A stretch of 64,000 nt of DNA. Origin: Thalassospiraceae bacterium LMO-JJ14. Lineage in GTDB: Bacteria > Pseudomonadota > Alphaproteobacteria > Rhodospirillales > Casp-alpha2. A program made the position numbers and the translations under genes. The DNA lies in contig CP134604.1 in the NCBI GenBank assembly GCA_021555105.2, forward strand, positions 3,712,001-3,776,000, written 5' to 3'. This document shows positions 30,220 through 39,042 of the stretch, piece after piece (the stretch's first letter is position 1; each line of letters starts with the position of its first letter). The notes under the pieces were generated by a model that was not told the origin of the DNA, ran no database searches, and was given only the letters and a program-made list of their open reading frames with translations.

Positions 30220-31272
30220 TCAACGGGGCATCAGCACCCAGTAATCCAGATCGAGCACAACATGCGGCATGTACTTGCCGTCATCGCTCTTGAGCGGGAA
30301 ATCGGCAGCCGGATGATCCTTGGTCGCCACGGTTCTGAGCCGCAACGCGCCAACATCGCTGCGCCCTTTGCATTCCGCCTTGTCCAGCACCTCGGACCAG
30401 GCAAACACCGTATCGCCTGCAAAGATCGGATTGGCATGTGAGCCGGCATTGATTGCGGCAATATGGAATGCATTGGCGAGACCATTGAAAGACAGGCCAC
30501 GCGCGATGGATATCACATGTCCGCCGTAGACCAACCGCTTTCCGAACCGCCCCTGTGCCTGCGCATGCTGATTGAAGTGTACTTTGGCCGTGTTCTGATA
30601 CAGCCGCGTCGCCAGCATATGCTCGGCATCCTCAACGGTATTGCCGTCAACATGATCGATCTTCTCGCCGACTTCATAAGCGCCCCAGAGATCGGCACTG
30701 CCGGAAAGCATCGTGTCATAGGCGCTGAAATCCGTCGCTGCCGGGACGACCAGATCAGCCGGCGCGACCTTATCGCTTAATTCGGGCACAACAGCACCCG
30801 GCGCCGGGCTTGCGGCATCGCGTTTGTTGACCATAACCCAGCGCTTGTAATCGACGACCGTGTCGCCGCGCTGGTTTGTAGCCACCGAACGCACATAAAC
30901 AACACCGGTCTTGCCGTTCGAATTCTCTTTGAGGCCGATGACTTCCGAAGTGGTCTGGATTGTGTCACCTGCGTAAACCGGGACGCCGAATATACCTTCC
31001 GCGTAACCGAGGTTGGCAACTGCGTTCAGCGAAACCTCGGGCACCGTTTTGCCGAAGGCGATATGAAACGCCAGCAGATCGTCAACCGGCTGTGATGCAT
31101 AACCCAGACTTCTTGCGAATTCTGCCGACGACTGAACCGCAAAACGTCCGCCGTAGAGACCTGTATAAAGTGCAATGTCCCCGTCCGTCACCGTGCGGGG
31201 GGTGGCATGTTCGAATATCCGCCCGATGCTGAAATCTTCGAAGAAATTTCCAGGGTTGGTTTTTCCGGCCAT
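30220..31272 (-). CDS. MaoC-family acyl-CoA hydratase, double hotdog (mesaconyl-CoA hydratase-like)
   Basis: This 350-residue protein has two MaoC-like hotdog halves: NFFEDFSIGRIFEHATPRTVTDGDIALYTGLYG at the front, and HFNQHAQAQGRFGKRLVYGGHVISIA in the second half with the catalytic Asn/His region. The size and double-domain form match mesaconyl-CoA hydratase of the ethylmalonyl-CoA pathway, but other enoyl-CoA hydratases share it. It starts one base after the stop of the malyl-CoA thioesterase-like gene, so the two are one unit. The start MAGKTNPGN is chosen; MPDMAGK three codons upstream is possible. Confidence 0.8.
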   Translation of the reverse strand: MAGKTNPGNFFEDFSIGRIFEHATPRTVTDGDIALYTGLYGGRFAVQSSAEFARSLGYASQPVDDLLAFHIAFGKTVPEVSLNAVANLGYAEGIFGVPVYAGDTIQTTSEVIGLKENSNGKTGVVYVRSVATNQRGDTVVDYKRWVMVNKRDAASPAPGAVVPELSDKVAPADLVVPAATDFSAYDTMLSGSADLWGAYEVGEKIDHVDGNTVEDAEHMLATRLYQNTAKVHFNQHAQAQGRFGKRLVYGGHVISIARGLSFNGLANAFHIAAINAGSHANPIFAGDTVFAWSEVLDKAECKGRSDVGALRLRTVATKDHPAADFPLKSDDGKYMPHVVLDLDYWVLMPR

Positions 31273-31273
31273 G

Positions 31274-32170
31274 TCAGGCATTCCCGCTGGCAATGGCATC
31301 GGCCAAGCTCAGCAAACGCTTGGCATCAGCGACGTGCAGATTTTCGATCAACTTCCCGTCGACAACAACAAGGCCCTTACCTTCCTTGGCGGCTTCGGCG
31401 TGCGCATCGATGATCTTGCGCGCCCAGGCGACTTCGGCTTCGGATGGCGCGAAAACTTCGTTCGCGGCTTCGATGGTTTTAGGGTGAATGAGTGTTTTCC
31501 CATCCATGCCCAGATCGCGTCCTTGTTCGCATGAAGCGCGAAAACCGGCATCGTCTGAAAGATCAAGGTGCACGCCGTCCAGGATCGCAATCCCGGCAGC
31601 CCGCGCCGCCAGCAGACAGTGCTCAAGTGAATACAGAAACGGCAGACGGTCCGGTGTATGTCGGCAGTTCAGATCCTTGGCAAGATCGGAGGTCCCCATG
31701 ACAAGACAGCCGACACGCGCATGCGCGAAGGCTACTTCCTTGGCATTCAGGATGCCGAGCGGCGTTTCCATCATGCACCATATCGCCATGTCCGCGGGCG
31801 CGCCGGCCGCTTCGAGAATCTGGACCGCTTCCAGCACCATGGCTGCGGTTTCGACTTTCGGCAAAACCACCGCGTGGCATTTCATCGCCGCAACGGCAGC
31901 CACGTCATCCCTGCCCCATTCGGTATCGAACCCATTGGTGCGGACACAGATTTCCCGGCTGCCATAGCCACCTTCATCCAGCGCCGCCTTGATCAGACCC
32001 CTCGCATCGGCCTTGGATTCAGGGGCAACGGAATCCTCCAGGTCGAGGATCAGGCCATCTGCGGGAAGCTCCCGGCCTTTCTGCATGGCACGGGTATTGG
32101 ACCCCGGCATATAAAGAACGGATCGTCTGGGACGGGTGGTTTTTTCAGTACTCACGGCGGTCTCCGGCAT
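31274..32170 (-). CDS. CoA ester lyase family; (3S)-malyl-CoA thioesterase-like
   Basis: This 298-residue CitE-like TIM-barrel protein shows RSVLYMPGSNTRAM, DGLILDLEDSVAPE, VLPKVE, MMETPLGILNAKEVA, MGTSDLAKDLN, CEQGRDLGMDGKTLIHPKT and VVDGKLIENLHV. From memory these phrases are closer to the (3S)-malyl-CoA thioesterase (Mcl2) of Rhodobacter than to the malyl-CoA lyase Mcl1. The pairing with a mesaconyl-CoA hydratase-like gene supports a role in C4/C5 acyl-CoA metabolism. Confidence 0.82.
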   Translation of the reverse strand: MPETAVSTEKTTRPRRSVLYMPGSNTRAMQKGRELPADGLILDLEDSVAPESKADARGLIKAALDEGGYGSREICVRTNGFDTEWGRDDVAAVAAMKCHAVVLPKVETAAMVLEAVQILEAAGAPADMAIWCMMETPLGILNAKEVAFAHARVGCLVMGTSDLAKDLNCRHTPDRLPFLYSLEHCLLAARAAGIAILDGVHLDLSDDAGFRASCEQGRDLGMDGKTLIHPKTIEAANEVFAPSEAEVAWARKIIDAHAEAAKEGKGLVVVDGKLIENLHVADAKRLLSLADAIASGNA

Positions 32171-33165: not shown

Positions 33166-33771
33166 GTGTCGGACTATCTTCGTGATGTATCCATCATGTT
33201 GGCTGAAGATCAGGAATTTTCCGCTAATCTGATGCGTAAGATGCTGAGGGTCATCGGCTGTACGGATGTGCACGTTTTCGAAAACGGCGAAGATGCTTGG
33301 GAATATTACAAAAGTAATTCCGTCGATCTGGTCATCACGGACTGGCAGATGGCACCGATAAACGGGATCAAACTGACCCAGTTAATCCGCAAGAGCGAAG
33401 AAACCCCAAACCCCTTCGTTCCCATCATCATGGTCACCGCCTACCGTGAACGGGAGCATGTATTCAAGGCGCGCGACACAGGCGTTACCGAATACGTCGT
33501 CAAACCGGTTTCCCCAAAAGGCCTTTTCAGCCGGATTGAAGCCGTTATCGAACGGCCGCGCCGTTTTGTTCGTGTCGGCGAATTCTTCGGCCCCGACCGC
33601 CGCCGCCACAATAAGGAATTCGATGGAGAAGACCGTCGCGGGCATGACGCAAAACCCAAGGCAAAACCGGATGCCACGCCAGGCGGAACGGAAAAGAAAC
33701 GTGACATGGAGCAGGATGAAATCAATCGGGCTTTCAATCCGAATGATGATTCCCGGACCGACGCCGACTGA
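33166..33771 (+). CDS. Stand-alone receiver-domain protein, copy 1
   Basis: This 201-residue protein has an N-terminal REC domain (about 1-130): acidic pocket in IMLAEDQEF, phospho-acceptor Asp in LVITDWQMAPINGIKL, Thr switch in IIMVTAYRE, and Lys in EYVVKPVSPKGLF. There is no DNA-binding or enzymatic output domain. The tail is charged and partly conserved with copy 2: RFVRVGEFFGPDRRRH, DGEDRRG, and EKKRDMEQDEINRAFNPNDD. The GTG start has only a weak upstream site (CAGG). It may act as a phospho-sink or adaptor. Confidence 0.85.
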   Translation: MSDYLRDVSIMLAEDQEFSANLMRKMLRVIGCTDVHVFENGEDAWEYYKSNSVDLVITDWQMAPINGIKLTQLIRKSEETPNPFVPIIMVTAYREREHVFKARDTGVTEYVVKPVSPKGLFSRIEAVIERPRRFVRVGEFFGPDRRRHNKEFDGEDRRGHDAKPKAKPDATPGGTEKKRDMEQDEINRAFNPNDDSRTDAD

Positions 33772-33870: not shown

Positions 33871-33888
33871 CAAAATGAAAGCATATGC
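33871..33888. repeat. Second copy of the upstream motif of the receiver genes
   Basis: CAAAATGAAAGCATATGC matches CAAAATGGAAGCATACG at 33114-33130, upstream of the first receiver gene. This suggests that the duplication included regulatory sequence. The palindrome is shorter here (GCATATGC). Confidence 0.4.
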
Positions 33889-33907
33889 GGGAACGGAGGG
33901 CGCGACA

Positions 33908-34546
33908 GTGTCTGAATTGAACGACTTGAACTCTTCGGACTATCTTCACGATGTATCCGTGATGATTGTCGACGATCAGAAATTTACCGCAAATATGCTG
34001 CGGCAAATGATCCGGGTGCTTGGGTGTATGGATATCCAGGTGTTTTCAAATGCCGACTCTGCCTGGACATTTTACAAACACAATAAGATCGACCTAATCA
34101 TACTTGATTGGGAAATGTCGCCGGGCAACGGGTTAAAAATGACAAAACTGGTCCGCAGAAGCCCGGAAACGCCGAATGCCTTCGTGCCCATCATCATGGT
34201 CACTTCGTACCGCGACAAGGATCATGTTTTCAAAGCGCGCGACGCCGGAGTGACCGAATACGTCGTTAAGCCGGTGTCGCCGAAGGCCCTTTTCAGCCGC
34301 ATCGAAGCCGTCATCGAACGCCCCCGGCGCTTTGTCCGCGTCGGTGAGTATTTCGGCCCCGACCGCCGTCGACACCATACTGCATATGACGGCGATGACC
34401 GCCGCGGGAAAGGGCCTCCACCGGATGCAGAAGCACAGGCGGTCGAAAAAAAACGCGACATGCAGCAAGATGAAATCAACAAGACCTTCAATCCGGACGA
34501 CGATGTGCCCGACAAGACCCCGGATAGCGAGCCTGAAGAAAACTGA
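33908..34546 (+). CDS. Stand-alone receiver-domain protein, copy 2
   Basis: This 212-residue paralogue of the preceding gene has the REC residues in VMIVDDQKF, LIILDWEMSPGNGLKM (phospho-acceptor Asp), IIMVTSYRD and EYVVKPVSPKALF. The tail repeats the FGPDRRRH, DGDDRRG and EKKRDMQQDEINKTFNPDDD blocks. I place the start at GTG 33908 (VSELNDLNSSDYL), with GGAGGG eight bases upstream; an ATG 11 codons earlier has no ribosome site. It is followed by a bidirectional terminator. Confidence 0.86.
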   Translation: MSELNDLNSSDYLHDVSVMIVDDQKFTANMLRQMIRVLGCMDIQVFSNADSAWTFYKHNKIDLIILDWEMSPGNGLKMTKLVRRSPETPNAFVPIIMVTSYRDKDHVFKARDAGVTEYVVKPVSPKALFSRIEAVIERPRRFVRVGEYFGPDRRRHHTAYDGDDRRGKGPPPDAEAQAVEKKRDMQQDEINKTFNPDDDVPDKTPDSEPEEN

Positions 34547-34617: not shown

Positions 34618-35649
34618 TTACGCGGCGTCTTCCATATAGTGGCCGACCAGGGTCTCTGCGATCTGTACCGTGTTGAGTGCCGCACCCTTGCGCAGGTTGT
34701 CGGAAACAACCCACATGGAAAGCCCGTTATCGATCGTCGGGTCCATGCGGATACGGCTGACGTAAACATCGTCCTCGCCGGCACATTCCTGCGGCGTCAC
34801 ATAACCGCCGTCGACACGCTCGTCGAATACCGTCACGCCCGGCGCGGATTGCAGGGCGCGACGCGCTTCGGCCTCGTCGATCGGGCTATCGAATTCCAGA
34901 TTCACGGCTTCACCATGACCGATAAACGACGGCACACGAACGCAGGTCGCATGCACACGGATGGAGGGATCGAGAATTTTCTTGGTCTCGACCACCATCT
35001 TCCACTCTTCCTTAGTCGACCCGTCATCCATGAACTTGTCGATATGCGGAATGCAGTTAAAGGCGATCTGCTTGGTGAATTTCTGGCGGTGCTGTTCAGC
35101 CGGCTGGTTCGTGTAGATGCCCTTGGTCTGGTTGAACAGTTCATCCATCCCAGCCTTGCCGGCGCCCGAAACCGACTGATAGGTCGACACTACGCAACGC
35201 GTGATATGCGCCAGATCGTGCAGCGGCTTCATCGCCGTTACCATCTGGATCGTCGAGCAGTTCGGGTTGGCGATAATGCCCTTGCGGACATAACCGGCGA
35301 TGGCCTCAGGGTTCACTTCAGGCACGACCAGCGGCACATCTGGGTCCATGCGCCAATACGACGTATTGTCGATAACGACAGCACCGGCGGCGGCGGCTTT
35401 CGGGCTGTATTCAGCAGATACCGATGCCCCCGGCGACGACAGCACGATGTCCGTGCCCTTGAAGTCGAACTTGGCAAGGTCCTGACATTTGAGGACATCG
35501 TCCTCGCCGTAGCTGATCTCCGTTCCAACCGAACGCGATGACGCAAGCGCCACAACCTCGTCCGCCGGGAAACGGCGTTCCGCCATGATCTCCAGTAAGG
35601 CGCGGCCGACATTTCCGGTGGCACCGACAACTGCAACTTTGTAACCCAT
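34618..35649 (-). CDS. asd: Aspartate-semialdehyde dehydrogenase
   Basis: This enzyme reduces aspartyl phosphate to aspartate semialdehyde, the branch compound for lysine/diaminopimelate, threonine and methionine. The start MGYKVAVVGATGNVGRALLEIM has AAAGGAGAA upstream, giving 343 residues. The catalytic Cys is in ANPNCSTIQM and the catalytic His in SFIGHGEAVNLEF. A Thr/Lys-rich leader peptide and a terminator-like hairpin lie upstream, suggesting attenuation by threonine and/or lysine supply. Confidence 0.97.
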   Translation of the reverse strand: MGYKVAVVGATGNVGRALLEIMAERRFPADEVVALASSRSVGTEISYGEDDVLKCQDLAKFDFKGTDIVLSSPGASVSAEYSPKAAAAGAVVIDNTSYWRMDPDVPLVVPEVNPEAIAGYVRKGIIANPNCSTIQMVTAMKPLHDLAHITRCVVSTYQSVSGAGKAGMDELFNQTKGIYTNQPAEQHRQKFTKQIAFNCIPHIDKFMDDGSTKEEWKMVVETKKILDPSIRVHATCVRVPSFIGHGEAVNLEFDSPIDEAEARRALQSAPGVTVFDERVDGGYVTPQECAGEDDVYVSRIRMDPTIDNGLSMWVVSDNLRKGAALNTVQIAETLVGHYMEDAA

Positions 35650-35716
35650 CTCGTTTTCTCCTTTGGGGTCTTCGTTTACCCCGCCAACAATCTCTTGGGT
35701 GCCGTCCACATAAGAC

Positions 35717-35743
35717 TTCGGCCCGCGAGCGTTTCAGCGGGCC
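35717..35743 (-). other. GC hairpin downstream of the asd leader terminator
   Basis: On the minus strand CGGCCCGC and GCGGGCCG form a perfect eight-base stem. Its GCCCGC arm could instead pair with the GCGGGC just after the leader stop codon (35773-35768). The two structures exclude each other, as in attenuators. No T-run follows. Confidence 0.5.
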
Positions 35744-35759
35744 GTTTCATCAAAACACG

Positions 35760-35787
35760 AAAAAACCGCCCGCTAGTGCAGGGTTTT
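35760..35787 (-). terminator. Terminator/attenuator hairpin overlapping the end of the asd leader
   Basis: On the minus strand AAAACC (inside the last leader codons) pairs with GGTTTT. A possible inner CCC/GGG pairing helps, and the stem runs into six T (35765-35760). The hairpin includes the leader stop codon, so ribosome position would decide whether it can form. Confidence 0.55.
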
Positions 35788-35820
35788 GGTCTTCTTCGTG
35801 GTGGTCTTCGCAAACAGCAT
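35773..35820 (-). CDS. Thr/Lys-rich leader peptide of asd
   Basis: This short reading frame of 15 codons reads MLFAKTTTKKTKTLH and then TAG, with five Thr and four Lys. A CGAGGAA ribosome site lies seven bases upstream of the ATG. A candidate promoter is about 70 bases upstream and a terminator hairpin overlaps its end; asd begins 123 bases after its stop. Thr and Lys are the end products made from the Asd product, which is what an attenuation leader should sense. It is not homologous by sight to the enterobacterial thrL peptide, but the logic is the same. No expression evidence is available. Confidence 0.65.
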   Translation of the reverse strand: MLFAKTTTKKTKTLH

Positions 35821-35888
35821 TTAAAATTCCTCGTTCCGCCGGACATGCAATGCATAATCGCCTGTTGCTACCGGCCGAAATCGCGCGG

Positions 35889-35917
35889 AACATAACGCGA
35901 AGTAATGAATTACGCAA
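35889..35917 (-). promoter_or_regulatory. Candidate promoter of the asd leader
   Basis: On the minus strand TTGCGT (35917-35912), 17 bases, then TATGTT (35894-35889). A transcript would start near 35882, about 60 bases before the leader ATG. Confidence 0.5.
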
Positions 35918-35951
35918 GTAGCATACTCTAATCCGGCAATAAGGATTGCTT

Positions 35952-36314
35952 ATGATCATCCGATTTCTTGCTCTGATCCTGATCTGCCAATTGATCGGCG
36001 AAACCGTCAATGTCGCCACGGGAATCCCGGTGCCGGGGCCGGTGATCGGCATGGCAATCCTGTTTGCCGGGCTCCTGGTCCGCCGCGGCCTGCCGCAGGG
36101 TTTGAACGATACCGCAGGCGGACTGCTCAAGCATCTGGCTCTGCTGTTCGTGCCCGCCGGGGTCGGCGTGATGCTTCATGTGCCCAGGCTGGCCGACGAA
36201 TGGTGGCCGGTGTTTCTGGCCATCGTACCGGGCACCCTGATCGCCATCGTCATTACGGCGCTGGTCATGGAGCGTCTCGGCCGTGCCACGTTGCGCCCGG
36301 AGGACAAGGTATGA
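35952..36314 (+). CDS. CidA/LrgA family holin-like membrane protein
   Basis: This 120-residue protein has four hydrophobic segments and the family phrase TGIPVPGPVIGMAILF. LrgA/CidA proteins work with LrgB/CidB partners in murein hydrolase control or in export of small metabolites such as pyruvate. AAGGA lies six bases upstream of the ATG. It overlaps the LrgB-like gene by four bases (ATGA). Confidence 0.88.
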   Translation: MIIRFLALILICQLIGETVNVATGIPVPGPVIGMAILFAGLLVRRGLPQGLNDTAGGLLKHLALLFVPAGVGVMLHVPRLADEWWPVFLAIVPGTLIAIVITALVMERLGRATLRPEDKV

Positions 36315-37033
36315 CCGCCCCCGACCTCGCCGAGATCTGGGTCTATCTGGCGCAGAAACCGCTGACCGGGCTGACCCTGACATTGTGTGCCTACGTCGCC
36401 GGGGATTGGCTGTATGAAAAAAGCGGCCGCCATCCACTTTTGAACCCGGTGCCCATCGCCATCGCCCTGATCGCGGCGCTGCTGTGGGCGACAGATATTC
36501 CCTACCGTGACTATTTCGAGGGTGCGCAGTTCGTTCATTTCCTGCTCGGCCCGGCAACGGTGGCGCTGGCGGTGCCGCTGTATCAGCAACTGGAAACCCT
36601 GAAAAAATCCGGTGCGGCCTTATTGGCCGGCGTGCTGATCGGCTCGGGCACCGCCGCGGGCTGCGCTTACGGTTTCGCCTGGATCGGCGGTGCCAGCATG
36701 GAAACGCTGCTCTCCATCGCGCCGAAATCCGTAACCGCACCGATCGCCATGGGCATTGCCGAGCAGCTGGGCGGCCTGCCGTCGCTGACGGCAGTGCTGG
36801 TCATTCTGACCGGGATTACCGGCGCCGTGCTGGGGCCACTGGTGCTGAACCTTGCAAGGATCAAGGACTGGCGCGCACGCGGACTCGCCATGGGGGTTGC
36901 CGCGCACGGCATCGGCACGTCGCGTGCGTTACAGGTTAACGCCGTCGCCGGGGCATTCGCCGGTCTCGCCATGGGGCTCAACGGTCTTGCCACGGCGATT
37001 CTGATCCCATTGATTTTTGCGTTGGTGTTCTGA
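36311..37033 (+). CDS. CidB/LrgB family membrane protein
   Basis: This 240-residue protein has about six or seven membrane segments and the family region SIAPKSVTAPIAMGIAEQLGGLPSLTA followed by AAHGIGTSRALQ. It is the partner of the preceding CidA/LrgA-like protein. The start MTAPDLAEIW overlaps the upstream stop. It ends four bases before the convergent hydrolase gene. Confidence 0.9.
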   Translation: MTAPDLAEIWVYLAQKPLTGLTLTLCAYVAGDWLYEKSGRHPLLNPVPIAIALIAALLWATDIPYRDYFEGAQFVHFLLGPATVALAVPLYQQLETLKKSGAALLAGVLIGSGTAAGCAYGFAWIGGASMETLLSIAPKSVTAPIAMGIAEQLGGLPSLTAVLVILTGITGAVLGPLVLNLARIKDWRARGLAMGVAAHGIGTSRALQVNAVAGAFAGLAMGLNGLATAILIPLIFALVF

Positions 37034-37037
37034 AGCT

Positions 37038-37706
37038 TCAACCACCCTGAGCAAAACCGGCAAGTTCGTCCAGCCACAACGGGTCGGGCGCATAGAACAA
37101 TTTGTGGCCGCCGTGGCCGGCCGGCAGCACCTTGTTCCTGTAAACCGCCTTGCCCACTTTCATGGCGTCATCGCAATCGCCGGCAACGGTGTCATCTTCA
37201 GCCCAGGCAATCAAAAACGTGCCTTCAACATCTTCGGCGTCGGTCTTAATGAACCTCTTGAGCCCGCGACGATGTTCCGACCCTGCCTTGCCGCAGCCCG
37301 CGAGCACCGCATAGTTGATGCCGGGCTCACCCAGCAGGGCTGACGTCAAAAGCGTGATCATGCCGCCCTTGGAATGTCCGGCAACGGTAATCTGATACGA
37401 CGGCACGCCGGCACTCAGCAGGGTCTGCACCTGCTGCGCCAGACCTTTGGCGTAGCGCCCGGCGTTGGCGTGCTTCCGGGCCTCGCCGATGACGACAAAG
37501 CCCCGGGACTCCAACTCATCTAGAATGTCGTAATAGTGATAGGCCTCATAGGGACCCTGCCGCTCCACGTACAAGCCGTGCAGATAGAACATATAGCGCT
37601 TGGCCGGGTCGATCATGTCAGGCATGGGGCGGTCGGCGGCCTGAGCTGACGTGCTCATGCACACCAGCGCAACGCACAGCATACCGAACAAAAGACGCAA
37701 CAGCAT
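37038..37706 (-). CDS. Secreted alpha/beta-hydrolase-like protein
   Basis: This 222-residue protein has a clear signal peptide (MLLRLLFGMLCVALVCMSTSAQA). The nucleophile elbow is GHSKGG (Ser), an acidic residue occurs in AWAEDDTVAGD, and a His lies in LPAGHGGHKLFYAP. That order fits an alpha/beta hydrolase acting in the periplasm. The substrate is unknown. It ends against lrgB and lies downstream of the leuB terminator, so it has its own promoter. Confidence 0.78.
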   Translation of the reverse strand: MLLRLLFGMLCVALVCMSTSAQAADRPMPDMIDPAKRYMFYLHGLYVERQGPYEAYHYYDILDELESRGFVVIGEARKHANAGRYAKGLAQQVQTLLSAGVPSYQITVAGHSKGGMITLLTSALLGEPGINYAVLAGCGKAGSEHRRGLKRFIKTDAEDVEGTFLIAWAEDDTVAGDCDDAMKVGKAVYRNKVLPAGHGGHKLFYAPDPLWLDELAGFAQGG

Positions 37707-37777
37707 CGAAATCGTTCCTATCCAGAGTATGTGGAGATTATACGTCCGTTTCGGACTGCACAAAACACGCAAAGAAA

Positions 37778-37801
37778 AACCGGGGCATATCGGCCCCGGT
37801 T
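37778..37801 (-). terminator. Terminator after leuB
   Basis: A perfect nine-base stem AACCGGGGC/GCCCCGGTT with a six-base loop is followed on the minus strand by TTTC after the TT of the stem. It lies 27 bases after the leuB stop and should end the leuCDB transcript. Confidence 0.85.
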
Positions 37802-37827
37802 CATATTCTGGAGAGTTACAGAAATAT

Positions 37828-38934
37828 TTAAGCCGCCAGCTTGTCCAGCTCATCGCAGATTTTTTCGCCCATCTGCTGCGTCGAGACCAGGGTCTTGCCG
37901 TCCTGCATGATGTCGCCGGTGCGATACCCCTGATCGAGCACATTGGCGCAGGCCTTCTCGACCATGTCCGCGTCCTCGCCCATGTCGAACGAATAGCGCA
38001 GGCACATCGCGAACGACAGCACCGTCGCCAGCGGGTTGGCCTTGCTTTCGCCGGCGATGTCGGGTGCGGAGCCGTGGACCGGTTCGTACAGCGCCTTGCG
38101 GCGACCGCTTTCATCGGCGGCACCGAGCGATGCCGACGGCAGCATGCCGAGCGAACCGGTCAGCATCGCCGCGCAATCGCTGAGCACATCGCCGAACAGG
38201 TTGTCGGTAACGATGACATCGAACTGCTTCGGGGCGCGCACGAGCTGCATGGCGCAGTTGTCGGCGTACATGTGCTCAAGCTCCACGCCCGGATAGTCCT
38301 TGCCGACCTCGGTCGCGATCTTGCGCCAGAACACACCGGTTTCCATGACGTTGGCTTTTTCGACCGAGTGCAGCTTTTTGCCGCGCTTCATGGCCAGGTC
38401 GAAGGCGGCGCGCACCACGCGCTCAACCTCGTCATGCGTATACGCGGTGGTATCGACGCAACGCTCGACGCCTTCATAGGTCTGCATGCCCTTGGGCTGG
38501 CCGAAGTAGGTGCCGGCCGTCAGTTCGCGGACGATCATGATGTCGAGACCGGCGACCAGTTCGTTCTTCAGCGACGACGCATCGGCCAGTGCCGGCATGC
38601 AGGTCGCGGGACGCAGGTTGGCGAACAGGTCCATTTCTTTTCTAAGGCGCAGCAGGCCCGCTTCAGGGCGCGCATCGCGTTCGACGTTGTCCCATTTCGG
38701 ACCGCCGACGGCGCCCAGCATCACGGCATCGACATTCATGGCTTTGTCCATGGTGGCGTCGGCGAGCGCGGATTTATGCACATCGTAGGCGGCGCCACCA
38801 ACCAGATCGTCCTCGATGTCGAACGAGACGTGACGGCGCTTGTCCATCCAGTCGACGACGCGCTTCACCTCACCCATCACCTCGGGACCGATCCCGTCGC
38901 CGGGCAGCATCAGCAGTTTCTTGTTGGCGGCCAT
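37828..38934 (-). CDS. leuB: 3-isopropylmalate dehydrogenase
   Basis: This is the third enzyme of leucine synthesis. The start [20 protein letters not shown] gives 368 residues, close to the usual 370. The signature is [27 protein letters not shown], and substrate contacts are in [11 protein letters not shown]. The open frame continues upstream into a REP-like repeat, which is not coding. Confidence 0.97.
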
Positions 38935-38969
38935 TTTGTTTCCTCTTCCCTCTTTAACTTTACCTGTCA

Positions 38970-38987
38970 TTCCCGCGCACGCGGGAA
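38970..38987. repeat. REP-like palindrome between leuD and leuB
   Basis: TTCCCGCG-CA-CGCGGGAA, preceded by TGTCA and followed by CC, fits the short intergenic palindrome often seen scattered in proteobacterial genomes (TCATTCCCGCG...CGCGGGAA). Placed between co-transcribed genes, it may act as an mRNA stabiliser. Copy number cannot be judged from one window. Confidence 0.6.
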
Positions 38988-39042
38988 CCGATGGCACCCG
39001 GCACGTCGTTCAGAACGGAGTCCCCACTTTTGCGGGGGATAA

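Follow-up and report, generated by a model that had tools for sequence, protein, structure and literature searches.

A conserved threonine/lysine leader peptide and putative transcription attenuator upstream of asd in Thalassospiraceae bacterium LMO-JJ14 and other Alphaproteobacteria

Leaders rich in threonine codons control the thr operons of enterobacteria, the codons of the enterobacterial thr leader being those for Thr and Ile. In Rfam the leaders of enterobacterial thrABC are represented by the family Thr_leader (RF00506). Among Alphaproteobacteria, leader-peptide attenuation of an amino-acid gene is known from the ilvIH leader of Caulobacter crescentus (PMC4117421), and ribosome-mediated attenuation has been proposed for the uORFC-8-2 motif, which is found upstream of cysS in Rhodobacterales (PMC8632094). 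The locus considered here lies upstream of asd in a window of 64,000 nucleotides (the whole stretch of DNA that was analysed) from Thalassospiraceae bacterium LMO-JJ14, and has features in common with all three. With Thr_leader it shares a Thr-rich leader peptide and the succession of blocks, as well as a terminator-type hairpin built on a GCCCGC/GCGGGC core, with which an arm located where the leader frame ends competes; it differs in that the gene it would control is asd rather than thrABC, in having codons for Thr and Lys as opposed to Thr and Ile, and in that its block 2 overlaps the stop codon. Like uORFC-8-2 it combines, in an alphaproteobacterium, a leader frame carrying putative regulatory codons with a stem of the terminator type, although there the codons are for Cys and the gene encodes an aminoacyl-tRNA synthetase, and the likeness is one of description. 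Much the same applies to the ilvIH leader, which resembles it by description, as an alphaproteobacterial case in which a leader peptide attenuates a gene of amino-acid synthesis, but which concerns branched-chain amino acids and a different gene. The author of a preliminary description of this DNA knew of no alphaproteobacterial asd leader of this kind, and searches covering 5.39 million open-access papers brought up no asd leader, the likely places for a prior prediction lying beyond them, in Lopatovskaya et al. 2010 (doi 10.1134/S0026893310010164, cited in PMC4833913) and Vitreschak et al. 2004; the putative Thr/Lys attenuator of asd is real and conserved, and apparently undescribed so far.

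Comparison with the Thr_leader model is an independent line of evidence, in which the relatives speak for attenuation and the window's own leader against it. Relatives of the asd leader match it over the full model at about 22 to 44.6 bits, with E values down to 3e-5, against a cut-off of 55 bits, and the window leader gave no match to it, for which reasons the asd leader is not filed here as a member of that family. The two could be homologous, or they could represent the same GC-rich solution reached separately. A more far-reaching proposal, that a single attenuator responds to the two end branches of the aspartate family, Thr and Lys (and Ile in part), at the enzyme common to all branches, and that it shares its descent with the enterobacterial thr leader, the same ancient device having come to serve asd in Alphaproteobacteria and thrABC in enterobacteria, must be considered doubtful.

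The features of the leader region are collected in Table 1. The leader stands 125 nt before asd on the minus strand, with a promoter and a Shine-Dalgarno sequence ahead of it, and GC blocks repeated three times (block 2, UAGCGGGC; block 3, GCCCGCUG; block 4, GCGGGCCG) can be paired either as an antiterminator, 2:3, or as a terminator-type hairpin, 3:4.

Table 1 Features of the asd leader region, listed from the promoter to the gene; positions are those of the window.
Feature	Position	Strand	Basis
Promoter TTGCGT-N17-TATGTT (predicted)	35889..35917; -35 = 35917-35912, -10 = 35894-35889	-	predicted
Predicted transcript start of asd leader	~35882	-	predicted from promoter
Leader Shine-Dalgarno GAGG, 8 nt 5' of leader ATG	35829..35832	-	sequence
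Leader peptide gene MLFAKTTTKKTKTLH, 15 codons, stop TAG 35775-35773	35773..35820	-	conserved frame and Thr/Lys content
Leader codons ATG CTG TTT GCG AAG ACC ACC ACG AAG AAG ACC AAA ACC CTG CAC TAG			
Block 1, putative regulatory Lys/Thr codons -11 to -3, AAG ACC ACC ACG AAG AAG ACC AAA ACC	35782..35808	-	
1:2 hairpin over stop codon, CACGAAGAAGACC...CCUGC-ACUA-GCGGG...GGUUUUUUCGUG	35756..35800	-	minimum-energy fold
Block 2 UAGCGGGC, overlaps stop codon, putative antiterminator 5' arm	35768..35775	-	8/8 pairs with 35742-35735
Six T after block 2	35765-35760	-	
Block 3 CGGCCCGCUG, arm common to antiterminator and terminator	35735..35744	-	GCCCG invariant, 54 relatives
3:4 hairpin CGGCCCGC-UGAAACGCUC-GCGGGCCG, conserved, terminator-type	35719..35744	-	in all aligned relatives
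Block 4 GCGGGCCG	35726-35719	-	
Tail after 3:4 (AAGTCTTATGTG), poor U-tract in window's genus	35707..35718	-	
Shine-Dalgarno of asd, AAGGAG	35663-35658	-	
asd, aspartate-semialdehyde dehydrogenase, 343 aa, putatively regulated gene	34618..35649	-	translation

Most of what the preliminary description had reported at this locus was recovered, namely the 15-codon Thr/Lys frame with its ribosome site, a candidate promoter upstream, and a second GC hairpin whose 5' arm is able to pair with UAGCGGGC at the stop codon. Its remaining element, a hairpin overlapping the stop codon and running into six T, is likewise present (35782-35760 in its short version), but its role as a terminator did not hold up: it corresponds to the 1:2 structure, for which no conservation as a terminator is seen, and the U-run that follows it is not conserved outside the genus, whereas 3:4 is. 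As judged by comparison of the predicted structures, the conserved attenuator hairpin is the downstream 3:4 rather than the hairpin over the stop codon. Taken by itself, the window sequence is unremarkable, in that a terminator scan found 3 hairpin-plus-T sites (including the short version of 1:2) against 3.0 in shuffles, which is the chance level, and the isolated fold of the leader has z = -1.6; the case consequently rests on the relatives.

Homologues of asd are present in 238 of the order's 248 genomes. For the comparison, upstream regions of the gene were drawn from 80 named genome contigs together with 110 genomes of the same order, making 169 distinct regions, and a leader was scored wherever a frame ending no more than 350 nt from asd held at least six Thr/Lys among its last 12 codons. 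Such a Thr/Lys-rich terminal frame occurs in 64 of the 169 regions, whereas reading the regions in antisense yields 1 of 169, and among all amino-acid pairs it is Lys plus Thr that ranks first. This frame-specific conservation contradicts the view that the locus is a plain terminator of upstream transcription beside a small frame that happens to be open by chance, as does the arrangement of the leaders between a promoter and asd: in the window's family, a promoter of the form TTGNNN-N17-TANNN[T/C] precedes the leader on the same strand in 22 of 22 members, with a spacing that is always 17 (16 to 18 having been allowed), so that transcripts should carry the leader. The chance-level hairpin count and ordinary fold of the single sequence are what such a plain terminator would lead one to expect, but with these results from relatives in hand it is scarcely credible.

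The last 12 codons of the 64 leaders, 768 in all, include 347 for Thr (ACC 223, ACG 70, ACT 34, ACA 20) and 159 for Lys (AAA 100, AAG 59), counts that are not an independent test, because the members were chosen by their Thr/Lys content, although the pattern of change within them is still informative. Lys exceeds its number in shuffles (63, sd 6.5), Ile is mildly enriched (35 observed, 21 expected), and Asn, which is as A-rich as Lys, is depleted to 4 where shuffles lead one to expect 51; the other two frames of the leaders encode mainly Pro/Arg or His/Asp. It is strongly supported by these comparisons that selection on the leader is for amino acids rather than for bases, Thr and Lys being kept as the codons drift synonymously. 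The Thr/Lys run stops 1-2 codons short of the stop codon, and leader length ranges from about 15 to more than 40 aa, with free variation 5' of the Thr/Lys block and the block itself staying beside the stop codon. The leader peptides of the window's genus include MLFMTTTTKKTKTLR, MLLAMITTKKTKTLQ, MLLAITITKKTKTLL and MFFAPITTKKTKTLH.

Given the preponderance of Thr over Lys, and the existence of relatives whose leaders are almost purely Thr (ATTTTTTTTTKAKK, RPTTTTTTPTG), it might be supposed that the attenuator senses Thr only (with Ile in part, in keeping with its mild enrichment), Lys being present as A-rich codons that block 1 needs for pairing to block 2 on its U-rich side; indeed, AAA or AAG does pair with GGUUUU in many leaders. 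However, this would not account for the strong avoidance of the equally A-rich Asn or for the excess of Lys over shuffles, and in the window leader Lys occupies codons -4, -6 and -7, at the modelled switch point discussed below (Thr occupies -3, -5 and -8 to -10). A purely threonine-directed device is accordingly regarded as unlikely, and a role for both amino acids is preferred.

For the analysis of the stems an alignment of 54 leaders was used. Block 3 has an invariant GCCCG and blocks 2 and 4 an invariant GGG throughout, the antiterminator core GCGGGC:GCCCGC of 2:3 is intact in 48 of the 54, and 3:4 is complete in essentially all of them, so that across these relatives a mutually exclusive pair of structures, antiterminator 2:3 and terminator-type 3:4, is found with one arm in common. 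The core is nearly constant within the order, which limits the covariation to be had there; the closing pair of 3:4 does covary (A-U 28, C-G 15, G-U 6). The strongest support for the stems is found in a different family of the class (f68, leaders L200, L210 and L233), where the blocks are jointly changed to GCGGCC/GGCCGC/GCGGCC; they follow leaders of which ATITTPTKTIGTKTTGTKKTWS is an example and stand immediately ahead of asd. Both the conserved Thr/Lys codons and the compensated stems that the preliminary description had proposed to look for in relatives are therefore present, and its idea has survived a comparison in which an absence of conservation would have told against it.

This pattern of conservation also bears on whether the region might function mainly as a metabolite-binding riboswitch, or as a leader RNA or peptide acting in trans. 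The latter has a precedent in peTrpL, an attenuator leader peptide reported to act in trans (PMC7298713). At the asd leader, by contrast, only the codons and the simple complementary blocks are conserved, linkers and leader lengths being variable, and the whole window contains no Rfam family at gathering score; either possibility seems very improbable as the main function.

Within the order, 58 of the 110 genomes sampled have the leader, as do 13 of the 29 families (here with a threshold of 5 Thr/Lys of 12), Magnetovibrio blakemorei (L025) being among them; one is also present in Marivibrio halodurans (L020). About half of the sampled order has no detectable leader. Outside the order it occurs in three families (f32, f68 and f178), and Thr/Lys frames precede asd in three more (f65, f135 and f151); in the Reyranella group no such asd leader was seen. 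In each genome tested there is a single copy, always at asd. A covariance model run against the organism's own genome found only the asd site (E 3e-17; the next best, at 0.04, is partial), and the exact block 2-3-4 pattern occurs once in that genome of 3.9 Mb, where a search of hom, lysC and dapA for Thr/Lys-rich leaders found none. Scanning 385 genomes of the class with the model returned mostly ordinary GGCCCGC terminators, and among the best-scoring loci inspected only those before asd had a Thr/Lys frame. The suggestion that asd goes without a leader where it follows leuB is unsupported (Fisher p = 0.39); where leuB is adjacent, the gap to asd is 238-439 nt with a leader and mostly below 175 nt without one.

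Two further observations concern variants of the leader. One genome of the same order (G036; leaders L136 and L170) has two copies of asd with different Thr/Lys leaders, FFAKTTTTTTKTTRV and ASKRPTTTTTTPTG, for which assembly contamination is a possible cause. In other alphaproteobacterial families, Thr/Lys(/Ile)-rich frames before asd (L233, L276, L238 and L283) are accompanied by quite different stems, which implies either fast evolution or repeated origin.

The consequences of ribosome position were modelled by folding the RNA downstream of a ribosome taken to cover 13 nt, counted from the A-site codon's first base. When the A-site of a ribosome on the window leader is placed at any of codons -1 to -3 or at the stop codon, P(3:4) comes to 0.85-0.87 (0.87 at the stop codon) and P(2:3) to no more than 0.02, and with no ribosome P(3:4) is 0.86; moving the ribosome back to codons -4 to -6 raises P(2:3) to 0.86-0.87 and brings P(3:4) down to 0.00, while codon -8 gives a P(2:3) of 0.72. 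The modelled switch point thus falls between codons -3 and -4. Over 60 leaders, the mean P(3:4) with the A-site at the stop codon is 0.94, and before block 4 is made P(2:3) exceeds 0.5 in all 60 for codons -3 to -8; shuffling the block-2 RNA reduces the share with P(2:3) above 0.8 from 57 of 60 to 23%. When all four blocks are allowed to reach equilibrium, 3:4 wins in 39 of the 60 relatives despite the stalled ribosome, from which it follows that in many relatives the switch must be kinetic, with 2:3 forming first. Kinetic switching is a feature of known attenuators. In the model, then, it is the position of the ribosome on the putative regulatory codons that decides between 2:3 and 3:4.

The anatomy of the leader, its conservation, the mutually exclusive pairing and, as a property of the model, the ribosome-dependent switch are what sequence and computation establish directly, and they include the classical mark of an attenuator, a (predictedly translated) frame with a conserved, frame-specific run of codons for pathway end products, in this case Thr and Lys; that the leader is translated, that transcription terminates and that asd responds physiologically are things we infer. 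On this footing it is considered very probable that asd is under ribosome-mediated transcription attenuation dependent on charged tRNA-Thr and tRNA-Lys, working in the manner of the enterobacterial thr leader. Comparison and modelled folding lend strong support to the preliminary proposal that charging with Thr and/or Lys governs the attenuation. RNA polymerase would start about 60 nt ahead of the leader, with a ribosome translating MLFAKTTTKKTKTLH behind it. When Thr- and Lys-tRNA are plentiful, the ribosome would reach the stop codon and cover block 2, allowing 3:4 to pair, and transcription would end before asd. When either is short, the ribosome would stall on the Thr/Lys codons and leave block 2 free, so that 2:3 could pair before block 4 is made, no terminator would form and asd would be transcribed. 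If there were no translation, 1:2 and 3:4 would both form and asd would stay off.

All this said, termination in the window's own genus may be a rather special case. The stretch of 12 nt following 3:4 holds on average 4.1 U in this genus (8 members), as against 6.4 in other leaders, the tail in the window being correspondingly poor in U (GAAGTCTTATGT), and the genus has a version of block 3 in which one pair is lost at the top of 3:4 and pairs with the stop codon are gained in 2:3. With a U-poor tail and a weakened top of 3:4, intrinsic termination may be weak here, implying either weak termination with a higher basal level of asd or, perhaps, help from another factor. One could go further and suppose that in this genus the device has lost intrinsic termination altogether and acts via Rho, or that the 1:2 hairpin with its UUUUUU has become the terminator, the U-poverty of the tail after 3:4 and the U-run after 1:2 both being in line with this. 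Yet 2:3 and 3:4 are fully retained in the genus, where 2:3 is even extended across the stop codon by an A-U and a U-G pair, and the 1:2 hairpin takes in codons over which a ribosome has to pass, in addition to having a U-run that is not conserved beyond the genus; such a departure is thus improbable. The tail after 3:4 carries a partly conserved GAAGTC.TATG in the window's genus only (35718-35707; at the same place in L083-L087, L004 and L006), 5 nt of which are able to pair with a leader codon in several species. Long-range pairing of leader AAGAC with tail GUCUU is seen in the window fold and, by eye, in some sister species, but it is not claimed, because five pairs within two short stretches arise too frequently by chance.

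Some neighbouring genes also deserve brief mention. Between leuB and asd the window contains, judging by eye, a pair of LrgA/LrgB-like membrane genes together with a frame that resembles a hydrolase (35946-37033, plus strand, and 37038-38997, minus strand); as asd lies directly behind leuB in many relatives, these were probably inserted into an old leuB-asd order. Ending convergent to asd are two tandem, clearly paralogous response-regulator-like proteins (33166-33771 and 33875-34546, plus strand). Further along, adjoining genes on the minus strand (30220-31299 and 31274-32170) appear by eye to be mesaconyl-CoA-hydratase-like and malyl/citryl-CoA-lyase-like, a pair that suggests the ethylmalonyl-CoA pathway.

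For leader-peptide attenuation in Alphaproteobacteria, asd with its Thr and Lys codons would represent both a new regulated gene and a new codon combination. The 54-sequence alignment and its model provide a candidate RNA family for Rfam, about 60 small genes are added of a kind that gene finders usually overlook, and the way in which the stem sequence changes across families under a constant logic makes the leader a good test case for the evolution of attenuators. The product of asd stands where the routes to lysine/diaminopimelate, threonine, methionine and isoleucine part. If the proposed mechanism is true, the mixture of Thr and Lys codons would amount to a natural two-input sensor, through which a shortage of either product would raise the supply of their common precursor.
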